Positions 6,007 through 46,302 of a stretch of 64,000 nucleotides of DNA are shown here, one piece after another. This DNA is from Chloroflexota bacterium (GTDB lineage Bacteria; Chloroflexota; Dehalococcoidia; JACQUA01). The translations under genes were made by a program, and so were the position numbers. The stretch spans positions 1-64,000 of the forward strand of contig JACQUA010000286.1 of the NCBI GenBank assembly GCA_016210565.1, given 5' to 3'. How positions within the stretch are numbered: the first letter of the stretch is position 1; each line of letters begins with the position of its first letter. The notes under the pieces are model-generated. The model had not been told where the DNA came from. It saw nothing but the letters and a program-made list of their open reading frames with translations, and did not search any database.

Positions 6007-6281
6007 TGTTTCATCTCCAGCGAATGCAGGACAGGTGGAAAAAAACCCGTCTTATATTACCCCTTTTTCCGGCTTTGTCAATACGCAGGTGCAAAAAAGG
6101 TTCAAAAACGGTATACTCAAAGAGGAAATGACGAAGCCCGAATGACGAATGACCAATCTAAAGAGGAAATGACGAAGTCCGAATGGAGTTGGCGTCAGCG
6201 TCCGCCACACGGATTTCTTTGTGCCCCTTGTGCTGTGTCTTTGTGTGAGACCATGCACCACGATTTGGTGCGCTTGTATTA

Positions 6282-8654
6282 GTGTATGAGATGACGGAAC
6301 ATTTCACGGTCTGTCCCTTTGCCGGCTGTCACCAGGACTGCGTGCTCAAAGTCGCGGTCCAGGACGGACGGGCGGTCAAAGTCGAATCGGTGGAGATGCC
6401 CGGCGAGCCGGGCGAAAGGCGCGCCTGTCTACGCGGCCTGGCTTCGCTGCGCTGGTTGTACCATCCGGACCGGCTGAAATACCCGTTGAAAAGGACAGGG
6501 GAGAGGGGAGAAGGGAAATGGGAAAGGGTTTCCTGGGATGAGGCGCTGGACGGGATTGCGTCGAAGTTGCTCGAGATAAGAGAACGATATGGGTCAAGGG
6601 CGGTGAAGGTCATGCCCGGCGGCAGCAGCTCGGTGGGGACGGTCATGGGGCGGCTGGCGGGGTTGCGTTTCGCCAGCGCCTGGGGAGCCGGCGGCGCCTT
6701 CGAGGGGAGGGGCTACACCTCGGACGGCGGCATACCGGCCGCCCTGTTGCTCGTCCTCGGCGACTCTTACCAGAGCCACGACTGCCGGGACTACCTGAAT
6801 TCGAAGATGGTGATTCTCTGGGGAGGCAACCCCGCCGAGACCTGCATCCCGGAGATGAGATATTACCTGGACGCCAGGGAAAACGGCGCCCGGATTGTAA
6901 ACGTCAGCCCTGTCTACCATGCCAGCGCGGCGAAAGCCGACTGGTGGATTCCGGTAAAGACGGCCACGGACGCCGCCCTGGCCCTGGGGATGCTGAACGT
7001 CATCGTCCAGCGGGGGCTTTACGACCGCAGTTATCTATTGCGGCACACTGTGGGGCCGTTTCTGGTACGGTCGGACACCGGGCGTTTCCTCCGGGAGAAG
7101 GACATCAGCGCTGGGGGCTCGGACAGGCCGCTGGTCTGGGAGGTTGAATCCCCCTTAATCCCCCTTTTTCAAAGGGGGAGAGCCGGAGCGGATGTAATCC
7201 CGCCTGTTGAAAAGGGGAGAGCCAGACCCCATGATGAGCCGGGTGTCGGTCCCGCCCTGTCGGGTAGCTTCAATGTCCAGGGCATCGAATGCCGGACGGC
7301 GTTCGACCTTCTGAAGGAAAGGGCGGCGGAGTACCCGCTCGACAAAGCGTCTGAAATCTGCGGACTGCCCGCGGCCACCATTGAGCGCCTTGCGGTGGAA
7401 TATGCTACCAACAAGCCGGCGGCTATCAGGCTGTTTCATGGGATGGCCCGCACTCTCAACAGCAACCTGGCCCTGAGGGCAATCATTACCCTGGGGGCCG
7501 TTACCGGAAACATCGGGGTGAGCGGGGGCGGGGTCTCCCAGCCGGACTGGTCCGGCTATCCGATAGAGCTGAATAGCCGGGGTGTCTCCTCGCCGAAGGG
7601 TGCGCCCGGAGTCAGCACGTTGCCGGGGACAAAGAACTCGCTCCGGGGATGGCGGGCCATAGCTGATGGAAAACCGTACCCGGTAAAGGCGCTGCTCATC
7701 GCCTACCAGAACCCTTTCCAGAACTACGGGAACGTGAGCCGCTACCGGGAGATATTATCGCGAATGGACCTGGTCGTGGTCTCGGATGTGTTCATGACCA
7801 TGACGGCCCGGTTCGCCGATTACGTCTTGCCGGAGGCCAGCACGTTCGAAAGGGCGGACATCGCCATCAGTAAAAACCACCTGGTCCGGATGGAGAAGGC
7901 CGTCGGCCCCGCTGGTGAGGCCAGGACACCCCTGGACATCTGGGGAGGCCTGGCCACGAGGGTAGGGCTTGGCCGGTTCTTCGAGTCCACTGAGGCGGAG
8001 TTGTTCAGGGTATTCCTGGATTCCGGACATCCGTCAGTGGCCGGGATCACCCTGGACAGGCTGGAGCGGGAGAAGGTCGTCCGGGCGAATGTGCCCCTGG
8101 CTGCCTACGTGCCGTTTGCGGATAAGGACTTCCCGACGGCGACGGGGAAGATCGAGTTCTATGTGGAGTCGCAACTGGAGTTTGGCGAGGAATTGCCGTT
8201 CTACCGCGAGCCGCTGGAAAGCGCCCCTCCGGGGTCGGGAAGCGGTTCCCTGCTACGCCTCTTGACTATCAAGACAAAGAACCTGGTGCAATCCCAACTG
8301 GCCAACGTCGACTGGATGCAGGGGCCTGATCCGGCCCCGTACCTCGTCATCAGCCCGGCCGATGCCGGCGCTCGCGGGATCGGGAGTGGAGAGATGGTGA
8401 GGGTCTTCAACGACCGGGGGGACCTGCGAATCAAGGCCAGGGTGAGTTCCACAGTGCCGGCCGGGACGGTCAACGTGTATCACGGTCCCTGGCCGGAGCA
8501 TTTCGTCAAAGGGCACTATAATCAGTTGCTACATGCCATCGACGACCCGAATGCGATCAACCCCGCCCTGGAAACAGACCAGATCGTGAAGGACACGAAA
8601 GCCGCCGCGCATATGGTCCATTACGATGTGCTGGTCAGGGTGGAGCGGGGGTAG
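6282..8654 (+). CDS. Molybdopterin-dependent oxidoreductase catalytic subunit (DMSO reductase superfamily)
   Basis: 790 aa; N-terminal Fe-S motif CPFAGCHQDC...RRACLRG; GNPAETCIPEMRYY, NPFQNYGN, C-terminal molydopterin dinucleotide-binding-like region; followed by a 4Fe-4S subunit. Confidence 0.9.
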   Translation: MYEMTEHFTVCPFAGCHQDCVLKVAVQDGRAVKVESVEMPGEPGERRACLRGLASLRWLYHPDRLKYPLKRTGERGEGKWERVSWDEALDGIASKLLEIRERYGSRAVKVMPGGSSSVGTVMGRLAGLRFASAWGAGGAFEGRGYTSDGGIPAALLLVLGDSYQSHDCRDYLNSKMVILWGGNPAETCIPEMRYYLDARENGARIVNVSPVYHASAAKADWWIPVKTATDAALALGMLNVIVQRGLYDRSYLLRHTVGPFLVRSDTGRFLREKDISAGGSDRPLVWEVESPLIPLFQRGRAGADVIPPVEKGRARPHDEPGVGPALSGSFNVQGIECRTAFDLLKERAAEYPLDKASEICGLPAATIERLAVEYATNKPAAIRLFHGMARTLNSNLALRAIITLGAVTGNIGVSGGGVSQPDWSGYPIELNSRGVSSPKGAPGVSTLPGTKNSLRGWRAIADGKPYPVKALLIAYQNPFQNYGNVSRYREILSRMDLVVVSDVFMTMTARFADYVLPEASTFERADIAISKNHLVRMEKAVGPAGEARTPLDIWGGLATRVGLGRFFESTEAELFRVFLDSGHPSVAGITLDRLEREKVVRANVPLAAYVPFADKDFPTATGKIEFYVESQLEFGEELPFYREPLESAPPGSGSGSLLRLLTIKTKNLVQSQLANVDWMQGPDPAPYLVISPADAGARGIGSGEMVRVFNDRGDLRIKARVSSTVPAGTVNVYHGPWPEHFVKGHYNQLLHAIDDPNAINPALETDQIVKDTKAAAHMVHYDVLVRVERG
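7147..7223. repeat. CCCCCTTTTTC/GAAAGGGGG palindromic repeat, two degenerate units, inside a CDS
   Basis: aatcccccttaatccccctttttcaaagggggagagcc...gtaatcccgcctgttgaaaaggggagagcc; matches intergenic copies near 23942, 24112 and 63335. Confidence 0.85.
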
Positions 8655-23863: not shown

Positions 23864-24225
23864 GTAAGGCGGGTTAAGCGCAGAGGTGGTGTTTCGGCTG
23901 TGGGGTGGCTGTGCGAACCCACCATTATTTCTCCACCCGCGCTCCCTCCCCCTTTTCCAAAAGGGGGATACAGGGGGATTGTCTGCCGTTGGAAAAAGGC
24001 TCTTCAAATCCCCTCAACAGGCTGTCTAAAAAGGAATTTGCTCATATCTGAGCGGGTCGAGGTGTCAGATATAAACATATACTCCCCTGGAGTACTTTTT
24101 GGACAGCCTGTTAATCCCCCTTTTTCAAAGGGGGAGGCGGATGATGGCGAAGGCCACGTAGAAGATGGTGGGTTCGCGCGACCACCCCCTGCCAGCGCCT
24201 CCCCATCGCGCTTAACCCACCCTAC
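23864..24225. repeat. Composite palindromic element (GTAGGGTGGGTTAAGCGC family) enclosing other repeats
   Basis: gtaaggcgggttaagcgc...gctgtgcgaacccacca ... ggtgggttcgcgcg...gcgcttaacccaccctac. Confidence 0.75.
24016..24112. mobile_element. MITE-like inverted-repeat element (~97 bp)
   Basis: Ends AACAGGCTGTCTAAAAAG ... CTTTTTGGACAGCCTGTT: 18-bp terminal inverted repeats with one mismatch, sitting within a CCCCCTTTTT palindrome region. Confidence 0.6.
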
Positions 24226-40081: not shown

Positions 40082-41938
40082 ATGGCAAAGCTACTGTCGG
40101 GAAACGAGGCGCTGGCCCTGGGCGCTTACCGCGCCGGGGTCAAGGTAGCTGCCGCCTACCCTGGCACCCCATCCAGCGAGATACTGGAAACCCTGGCGAA
40201 ATTCAAAGATATCTACGCCGAATGGTCCGTCAACGAAAAGGTGGCCATGGAGGTAGCGATGGGGGCCTGCTACGCTGGGGCCCGGGCCCTGGTTTCCATG
40301 AAGCAGGTGGGGCTTAACGTAGCCAGCGACCCGTTCATGGCGGTGTCCACCACCGGCGTCAATGCGGGTCTCGTGGTCATCAGCGCCGACGATCCCGGCA
40401 TCCACAGCTCCCAGGACGAGCAGGACAACCGCCACTACGCCCCTTTTGCCAAAGTGCCCATGCTGGAACCCAGCGACAGCCAGGAAGCCTGCGAGTTCAT
40501 GGCCCTGGCTTACGATATGAGCGAGCGGTTTGACACGCCGGTGCTGGTGCGCACGACCACGCGGGTGTCTCATTCCAAGTCGGTGGTCCGGGCAATCCCC
40601 CTTGATCCCCCTTTTGCAAAGGGGGAGAGGTTGGAAATCCCCCTTAATCCCCCTTTGCGAAAGGGGGAAAGAGGGTTCAGGCGCGACCTGGCGAAGTACG
40701 TCATGCTGCCCACCAGCGCCAGGATGAGGCGACCTCTCATCGAAGAGCGCCTGGTCAATCTGGCCGGATTCGCCGAGACCGTCCCGGTCAACCAGGTCTT
40801 CTCGGGTGACCCCAGCCTGGGGATCGTTACCAGCGGCATCGCCTACCAGTACGCCCGCGAAGTCTTCCCGAAGGCTTCCTTTCTCAAGCTGGGCATGACC
40901 TATCCCCTGCCGCGGCGCCTGATTGCGGATTTCGCCGCCACGGTAGACCGGCTGCTGGTCATCGAGGAGCTGGACCCTTTCCTGGAACAGGCCATTCTGG
41001 CTATGGGGATCAGGGTCGCCGGCAAGGAGTTCGTTCCCCGGACGGGGGAGTTGAACCCCGGCATCATCGAGGAGGCCGCTCACAAAGCCGGTCTCCTCAA
41101 GCGGCCGAGGCGCAAGACTGAACCGGCGCTGGTCCTGCCCAAGAGGCCGCCGCTTCTCTGCGCCGGTTGTCCTCACGCCGCGACGTTCTTTGTTCTCAGC
41201 ACCTTGGGACAGCGCGCCCGGCTGCCCGGTTCGAAAAGCGATGTACCAGGAGAGTCCGGGCTGGTCATCACCGGGGATATCGGTTGCTATACCCTGGGCG
41301 CTTATCCGCCCTACGATGCCATGGATACCTGCGGCTGCATGGGCGCCAGCATCGGGGCCGCGATGGGGATGGAGAAGGCAGGCATAAAGAGGAAGAGTAA
41401 GGTAGTGGCCGTTATCGGCGATTCCACCTTCATGCACTCCGGGATAACGCCCCTGGTCAACGCGGTCTACAACCAGGGCAAGATAACCGTGATTATCCTG
41501 GACAACAGCACCACGGCCATGACCGGTCACCAGCCCCATCCCGGCACCGGCGTCTCGGCGCAGGGACAGCCCACTCAGGCCGTCTATCTGGAAAGCCTCA
41601 TCCGGGGAATGGGAGTAAGCGAACTGAAGGTGGTGAATGCTTTTGATATCAGGGAAATCAGGAGCGCCATCAGGAACGCTGTGAATAGCGACCAGCTTTC
41701 GGTGGTCATTGCCCGAGGCGCCTGCTCGGTGCGACTGCCCGGCGGGGTCAATCCCAGGGCTGTAGACGATAACAAGTGCGACCAGTGCGGCGTCTGTATT
41801 CTCATCGGCTGCCCCGCCATCCGTACCGAAAGCGGAGAGGCATTGATCGAAGGGTCTCTTTGCGTCGGCGACCCCTGCGGCCTGTGCGAGAGCATTTGCC
41901 CGAAGAAGGCGATAGGGAAAGTAGCGAGTAGTGAGTAG
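40082..41938 (+). CDS. iorA: Indolepyruvate ferredoxin oxidoreductase, alpha subunit
   Basis: 618 aa; GNEALALGAYRAGVKVAAAYPGTPSSEILETLA; RTTTRVSHSKSVV; RPPLLCAGCPHA; GDIGCYTLGAYPPYDAMDTCGCMGAS; C-terminal 2x4Fe-4S. Confidence 0.96.
   Translation: MAKLLSGNEALALGAYRAGVKVAAAYPGTPSSEILETLAKFKDIYAEWSVNEKVAMEVAMGACYAGARALVSMKQVGLNVASDPFMAVSTTGVNAGLVVISADDPGIHSSQDEQDNRHYAPFAKVPMLEPSDSQEACEFMALAYDMSERFDTPVLVRTTTRVSHSKSVVRAIPLDPPFAKGERLEIPLNPPLRKGERGFRRDLAKYVMLPTSARMRRPLIEERLVNLAGFAETVPVNQVFSGDPSLGIVTSGIAYQYAREVFPKASFLKLGMTYPLPRRLIADFAATVDRLLVIEELDPFLEQAILAMGIRVAGKEFVPRTGELNPGIIEEAAHKAGLLKRPRRKTEPALVLPKRPPLLCAGCPHAATFFVLSTLGQRARLPGSKSDVPGESGLVITGDIGCYTLGAYPPYDAMDTCGCMGASIGAAMGMEKAGIKRKSKVVAVIGDSTFMHSGITPLVNAVYNQGKITVIILDNSTTAMTGHQPHPGTGVSAQGQPTQAVYLESLIRGMGVSELKVVNAFDIREIRSAIRNAVNSDQLSVVIARGACSVRLPGGVNPRAVDDNKCDQCGVCILIGCPAIRTESGEALIEGSLCVGDPCGLCESICPKKAIGKVASSE
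40594..40677. repeat. Two tandem 42-bp CCCCCTT/AAGGGGG palindromic units in frame inside iorA
   Basis: aatcccccttgatcccccttttgcaaagggggagaggttgg + aatcccccttaatccccctttgcgaaagggggaaagagggtt; encodes AIPLDPPFAKGERL/EIPLNPPLRKGERG. Confidence 0.9.
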
Positions 41939-42109: not shown

Positions 42110-42709
42110 GTGAACTTGCTTGTGAAAAAGATAAACATCCTTATCGCCGGGGTGGGGGGGCAGGGGATTGTCCTGTGCAGCGACATCCTGGGCGACGCGG
42201 CCATCGCAGCGGGCTATGATGTCAAGAAGACCGATACCCTGGGCATGGCCCAGCGCGGGGGCAGCGTGGTCAGCCACGTCAGGATCGCCGAAAAGGTGTG
42301 GTCCCCTTTGATCCCCGAGGGCGAGGTTGACCTGCTGCTGGCCTTCGAAAAACTGGAGGCGGCTTCCTGGGTGCACTACCTGCGGAGGCAGGCAAAGGTG
42401 ATCGTCAACGACTATGCCCTGCCGCCGCTTTCGGTAAGCCTGGGCACGGCCACGTATCCGTCTGACCTTGAGATACAGGCTGTGCTGAAACAGCGGACAG
42501 ACAGGGTCTTCTTCCTCGAAGGCAGCCGGCGCTCCCGGGAGCTGGGCGACGCGCGGGTCATCGGGTCGTTCATGCTGGGCTGCGCCTCCGGCTATTTGCC
42601 CCTGAAGACGGCCGTCTTGAGGGAGGTCATCGCCGGGAAGGTCCCGGAGAAGTCCCGGGAGTTGAACCTCAAGGCGTTTGATGAGGGGAGAAAGGTGACA
42701 AAGAGTTGA
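42110..42709 (+). CDS. iorB: Indolepyruvate ferredoxin oxidoreductase, beta subunit
   Basis: 199 aa; KINILIAGVGGQGIVLCSDILGDAAIAAGYDVKKTDTLGMAQRGGSVVSHVRI; downstream of iorA. Confidence 0.94.
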   Translation: MNLLVKKINILIAGVGGQGIVLCSDILGDAAIAAGYDVKKTDTLGMAQRGGSVVSHVRIAEKVWSPLIPEGEVDLLLAFEKLEAASWVHYLRRQAKVIVNDYALPPLSVSLGTATYPSDLEIQAVLKQRTDRVFFLEGSRRSRELGDARVIGSFMLGCASGYLPLKTAVLREVIAGKVPEKSRELNLKAFDEGRKVTKS

Positions 42710-46169: not shown

Positions 46170-46302
46170 TGGCGCAAAGACCCTTCGCCTGCCCCTTCGT
46201 TTCGCTCAGGGCTTCGGCTCAGGGTGACAGCTATCCATCCTGTCATTCTGAGCGAAGCGAAGAATCTCTTTGCGGATTAACGCAACCAAGGACTGGCCGG
46301 CC

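Follow-up and report, generated by a model that had tools for sequence, protein, structure and literature searches.

Two copies of a dispersed palindromic repeat read in frame within the iorA gene of a Dehalococcoidia bacterium

The iorA locus

The window, that is, the entire 64,000-nucleotide stretch of DNA analyzed here, comes from the metagenome-assembled genome of an uncultured Chloroflexota bacterium (6.53 Mb in 419 contigs, with 6.4% contamination) and encompasses the adjoining genes for the two subunits of indolepyruvate ferredoxin oxidoreductase (Table 1). The open reading frame of the alpha subunit (40082–41938) runs through 618 codons without a break anywhere and includes, at 40594–40677, a palindromic repeat, AATCCCCCTTnnTCCCCCTTTnnnAAAGGGGGA, in two direct units of 42 bp that are read in frame and encode the stretch AIPLDPPFAKGERLEIPLNPPLRKGERG. 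These units had been pointed out in an earlier examination of the DNA without database searches (hereafter, the sequence-only reading); its coordinates proved exact, its translation correct and the frame open throughout.

Table 1. Genes and repeat copies in the window.
Feature	Coordinates	Strand	Details
Repeat copy, in frame, VESPLIPLFQRGRAG	7147..7179	+	inside molybdopterin oxidoreductase ORF 6249-8654; monomer scan, ORF reading
Repeat copy outside predicted genes	23948..23980	-	2 mismatches
Degenerate repeat copy	24115..24146	-	4 mismatches
iorA, indolepyruvate ferredoxin oxidoreductase alpha subunit	40082..41938	+	618 aa, frame intact; TIGR03336, POR_N, TPP_enzyme_C
Palindromic repeat unit 1, AATCCCCCTTGATCCCCCTTTTGCAAAGGGGGAGAGGTTGGA	40594..40635	+	encodes IPLDPPFAKGERLE (approx.); 0 mismatches to family monomer pattern at 40594-40626
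Palindromic repeat unit 2, AATCCCCCTTAATCCCCCTTTGCGAAAGGGGGAAAGAGGGTT	40636..40677	+	encodes IPLNPPLRKGERGF (approx.); 0 mismatches to family monomer pattern at 40636-40668
iorB, beta subunit, partner gene downstream of iorA	42110..42709	+	NF005322 237.6 bits (cut-off 237), PF01558
Repeat copy	63333..63364	+	3 mismatches

A family of dispersed palindromic repeats

The iorA units belong to a family that is scattered over the genome. The strict pattern ATCCCCCTTN{0,6}TCCCCCTT has 118 matches genome-wide, compared with none for the reversed-pattern control. In 0.97 Mb of the 6.53 Mb, sampled as stretches chosen around repeats from the first 100 of the 118 strict matches listed, there are 165 copies of the core with at most one mismatch (2–3 for two control palindromes), and the monomer scan of the same stretches finds 164 copies (one in the reversed sequence). 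The family consensus is AATCCCCCTTaaTCCCCCTTTttcAAAGGGGGA, with a 33-bp core, a variable 2-nt spacer and a 3-nt loop. Many of the copies are arranged as inverted doublets, in the manner of REPINs or MITEs: among the monomer pairs less than 60 bp apart, 27 are inverted (-+), with preferred spacings of 12–15 and 25–27 bp between the monomers, 5 have the opposite arrangement (+-) and 19, the iorA pair among them, are direct; ~71 of the 164 monomers are unpaired. A fixed 42-bp tandem period was rejected given that the spacings between neighbors range from 30 to 73, and a 45-bp perfect palindrome suggested as the full element by matches in two other genomes (G001 and G085) fits only three sites in the sampled part of the repeat's own genome and is therefore not the principal form there.

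The two iorA units share 32 of their 42 nucleotides by direct reading, and in the monomer scan, both agree with the 33-bp consensus at every fixed position. Within the monomer, they differ at four positions, all in the variable spacer and loop. Because these are the very positions at which the dispersed copies vary, the pair probably arose from two independent copies that came to lie next to each other, and not from a recent tandem duplication. The family counts refute the notion that a low-complexity Pro/Lys linker arose locally in iorA by duplication of a 42-bp segment and resembles the repeat by coincidence. The direct tandem arrangement and the preserved frame would fit such an origin; however, a unit that agrees at all fixed positions with a genome-wide family, for which controls give 0–1 matches, and that varies within the monomer precisely where the dispersed copies do, makes this account scarcely credible.

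The distribution of the repeat across the genome is far from uniform. Predicted genes account for 77% of the sampled bases but contain just 30 of the 165 copies (18%, including one at L211, C47:37135, and one at L214, C62:14103, which appear to be chance resemblances or ordinary codons and were left out of the insertions), and therefore, coding regions are strongly avoided. The sequence-only reading described the palindrome as intergenic in the window, which holds for most of the sampled copies but not for the one that lies in frame in the molybdopterin oxidoreductase gene.

In G001, the one genome from the same family of bacteria, the repeat is frequent, with 49 strict copies; across Dehalococcoidia, 26 of 393 genomes have it at all, and in a phylum-wide sample, copies are present in 2 of 121 genomes, both from Dehalococcoidia. 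Since many Dehalococcoidia genomes are free of the repeat, homologues without the insertion are readily at hand for measuring both the cost of insertion and the sites that proteins tolerate. A search of the repeat against Rfam yielded nothing above the threshold, and the sub-threshold matches to miRNA precursors are attributed to the hairpin shape. A second dispersed repeat, TGTCATTCTGAGCGAAGCGAAGAATCT, was observed with up to three mismatches in the window (46241–46267) and in 14 other places in the sampled stretches.

The insert in the IorA protein

IorA was aligned with ~100 distinct proteins from relatives and named GTDB genomes, mostly Dehalococcoidia, along with Anaerolineae, Bacillota and Syntrophales. 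The nearest homologues are only ~69% identical to the window protein. The repeat is absent from all the ~100 homologues, none of which carries repeat codons of that length at this site, and the insertion is, among these proteins, specific to the genome of the window, as anticipated by the sequence-only reading, which took the insertion to be lineage-specific. The distance between the conserved VLVR and KYVML motifs is 56 residues in the window protein, compared with 41 in most of the Dehalococcoidia homologues, 39–45 in nearly all homologues and 36–38 in some distant paralogues; the segment between VV and F spans 29 residues, compared with 14, highly variable ones, in most Dehalococcoidia. In the alignment, the 28 repeat-encoded residues take the place of ~13 non-conserved linker residues, for a net gain of 15. 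Given that the net change is 15 amino acids, not 28 or 14, the event is not accounted for by a single, simple step of insertion. The earlier description of an in-frame insertion is right as to the frame and the absence from homologues but not as to a clean gain of 28 residues; judging from the alignment, the event is best described as a net 15-residue replacement or extension of a variable 14-residue linker.

An AlphaFold2 model of IorA built from 36 IorA sequences (mean pLDDT 85.5, pTM 0.85) places the insert in a region without secondary structure. Residues 173–192, located between a strand (166–170) and a helix (203–206), have the lowest confidence in the entire model, with pLDDT below 50, and homology to the solved alpha subunits of 2-oxoacid:ferredoxin oxidoreductases breaks near the insert and picks up after it. 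The model thus fits with the insert occupying a disordered interdomain linker, in line with the loop that had been expected at this site, and the low pLDDT suggests that the insert would be exposed on the protein surface.

The open frame could also have been retained by chance in a decaying pseudogene or a misassembled locus. The source is a metagenome-assembled genome with hundreds of contigs and some contamination, and the iorA site is itself a repeat; repeats are classic assembly hazards. Nevertheless, IorA matches the TIGR03336 (IOR_alpha) profile over residues 2–611 with 692 bits, above the curated cut-off of 651, iorB adjoins it, and in a 36-member family alignment, all the family-invariant residues, including the C-terminal cysteines, are kept. 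The 42-bp unit is short and lies inside a 92.7-kb contig, which, together with independent in-frame copies elsewhere, speaks against the assembly error that had been raised as a possible objection. Moreover, the same pattern recurs in independent genes (RecG, PriA, MiaB and ArgJ) that are unlikely to all be dead, leaving this explanation most unlikely. The repeat peptide is presumably translated and IorA presumably still functional.

Another explanation holds that the insert has taken on a function, whereby a basic, proline-rich linker or an mRNA hairpin tunes the assembly or the translation of IorA. The mRNA of the insert is predicted to form a hairpin of -58.9 kcal/mol (z -5.6), far stabler than in shuffled sequences, and the match of both units to the consensus could be taken as a sign of selection. 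However, the strong hairpin stems from the hairpin potential that palindromes themselves possess, the linker is conserved in none of the homologues, and recent insertion accounts for the consensus match without selection. Adoption for a function is, accordingly, highly improbable.

In-frame copies in other genes

The sequence-only reading, which likened the insert to elements that enter open reading frames, finds corroboration in other genes of the genome, where in-frame copies occur in ArgJ, RecG, PriA, MiaB, an SNF2 helicase, cytochrome c, a CoA-activase and the molybdopterin oxidoreductase. ArgJ contains two repeat units that amount to a clean gain of 28 amino acids over 24 homologues. RecG has two in-frame copies, one in the hypervariable N-terminal linker and one in a variable helicase loop, PriA has one, in a variable loop ahead of the P-loop, and cytochrome c has two. 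In MiaB (L217, 9409–10866, G000:C83), several units of the SPFAKGG type lie between the N-terminal and radical-SAM domains, and the repeat region comprises 109 residues compared with 49 in the solved structure (PDB 7mjv), a gain of ~60 amino acids. The CoA-activase (L202, 1749–6122, G000:C13) contains three 72-bp tandem composites of the palindrome and the second repeat, all in frame (CHSERSEES...IPLNPPLSKGG) and located between its two ATPase domains.

The repeat is read in at least three different frames, giving IPLNPP.KG, SPLxPLxQRG and SPFxKGG. For genome annotation, this comes with a warning: motifs such as IPLNPPLxKG or SPLxPLxQRG, when met in predicted proteins, derive from the repeat and are not conserved domains. 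All the in-gene sites that can be aligned with homologues are in linkers or in loops, most of which vary in length; this would be expected if only harmless insertions survive. Among the loci from relatives, there is a single, weak in-frame candidate (L322).

That DNA helicase genes are hit more than once is suggestive. Still, it appears rather unlikely that the family, like the REPs of other phyla, preferentially ends up in replication and repair genes (RecG twice, PriA and the SNF2 helicase), such that the in-frame survival is non-random; if true, this would point either to a shared, replication-coupled mechanism of single-strand insertion or to the repeat peptides having a function in the proteins concerned. 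Two further observations concern the ends and the integrity of reading frames. At three loci (L203, L214 and L220), a palindrome in the reverse orientation supplies the last codons and the stop of predicted genes (...SPPLKKGD or similar), and the PriA gene of the same-family genome (L272, G001:C331) has one in-frame TAG inside the reported open frame.

Mobility and origin of the insert

From the dispersal of the repeat and its absence in homologues, we infer that it is mobile. Five matches to the RAYT-family profile NF047646 in the genome exceed the cut-off; at the six RAYT-like loci examined, there is no copy of the repeat within ~1.5 kb, and no transposase could be linked to it there, nor was an insertion sequence with ends matching those of the repeat identified. 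A cognate RAYT may reside in the part of the genome that is missing from the assembly. Two of the RAYT-like loci, L337 and L338, bear other palindromes (CGGGAACAGGCTTTCCAGCCTGTTCCCG and GGGCGCTTCGCGAAGCGCCC), possibly representing separate REP families.

Taken together, the 84 bp in iorA very probably stem from a short palindromic repeat, dispersed, non-autonomous and similar to REPINs or MITEs, two copies of which settled in a variable interdomain linker. Under this scenario, a small non-autonomous element would spread via some enzyme, chiefly between genes; where a copy enters a gene at a flexible linker and is read in an open frame of the element, the protein would tolerate it. The copies in iorA would have been kept because the frame reads through without a stop, yielding a short, disordered peptide rich in Pro, Gly and Lys, and the native 14-residue linker would have been overwritten or lost, for the net gain of 15 residues.

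Comparison with known repeat systems

A search of open-license papers found neither a paper containing the sequence of this repeat nor a description of REPs or MITEs in Dehalococcoidia, so the family is apparently undescribed; in-frame palindromes in genes are already known elsewhere. The Rickettsia palindromic elements (RPEs) are ~100–150 bp long (~150 bp in those first reported), with one conserved peptide per family, according to the summary in PMC10969869. In the accounts given by PMC10969869 and PMC3733652, they are dispersed palindromes, found between and inside genes, that are read in frame and add short peptides to unrelated housekeeping proteins. The repeat described here resembles the RPEs, including the CGTC-type RPE-4 and RPE-6, in being dispersed in and between genes, in frame, sometimes with several copies per gene, and in interrupting conserved genes whose homologues lack it (IorA, ArgJ, RecG, PriA and MiaB). 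It differs from them in its 33-bp core (42 bp per unit in iorA), the use of several frames without a single conserved peptide, the lack of the CGTC tag, the Chloroflexota host and the proportion of copies in predicted genes (18% of those sampled, compared with nearly half of the R. conorii RPEs, which were reported as intragenic). The likeness to RPEs proposed in the sequence-only reading is thus borne out in behavior, though the element is shorter.

The intragenic GTAG/CGTC REPs known from several phyla, including those of Opitutus terrae, Thauera and Thioalkalivibrio, are 20–40 bp long, occur as dimers and groups and produce inserts of ~20–30 amino acids; some of them supply stop codons, and they are frequent in DNA replication and repair genes (PMC3733652). 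The present repeat is similar in size class, arrangement in dimers and groups, insert length, provision of stop codons and occurrence in replication and repair genes (RecG, PriA and the SNF2 helicase), but unlike these REPs, its consensus has neither GTAG nor CGTC at the ends, and it flanks no RAYT at the six loci examined. The excess of inverted pairs at preferred spacings over the opposite arrangement (27 to 5) is reminiscent of REPINs (PMC3116915), whereas the many unpaired monomers, the 19 direct pairs and the RAYT-like loci devoid of the repeat are not. The enterobacterial RU-1, RU-2 and RU-3 are MITE-like elements of 103–168 bp with open frames that are occasionally fused to genes (PMC2759123); the repeat shares with them the MITE-like, intergenic character and the occasional open frames in genes but is shorter.

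With this family, one more bacterial lineage joins those in which selfish palindromic DNA has turned, time and again, into the protein sequence of housekeeping enzymes; its repeat has no GTAG or CGTC tag and no visible transposase. Lacking these tags and a linked RAYT, and being of smaller size than the RPEs first reported, the repeat is assigned neither to the RPEs nor to the GTAG/CGTC REPs, but it works in the same way as both.
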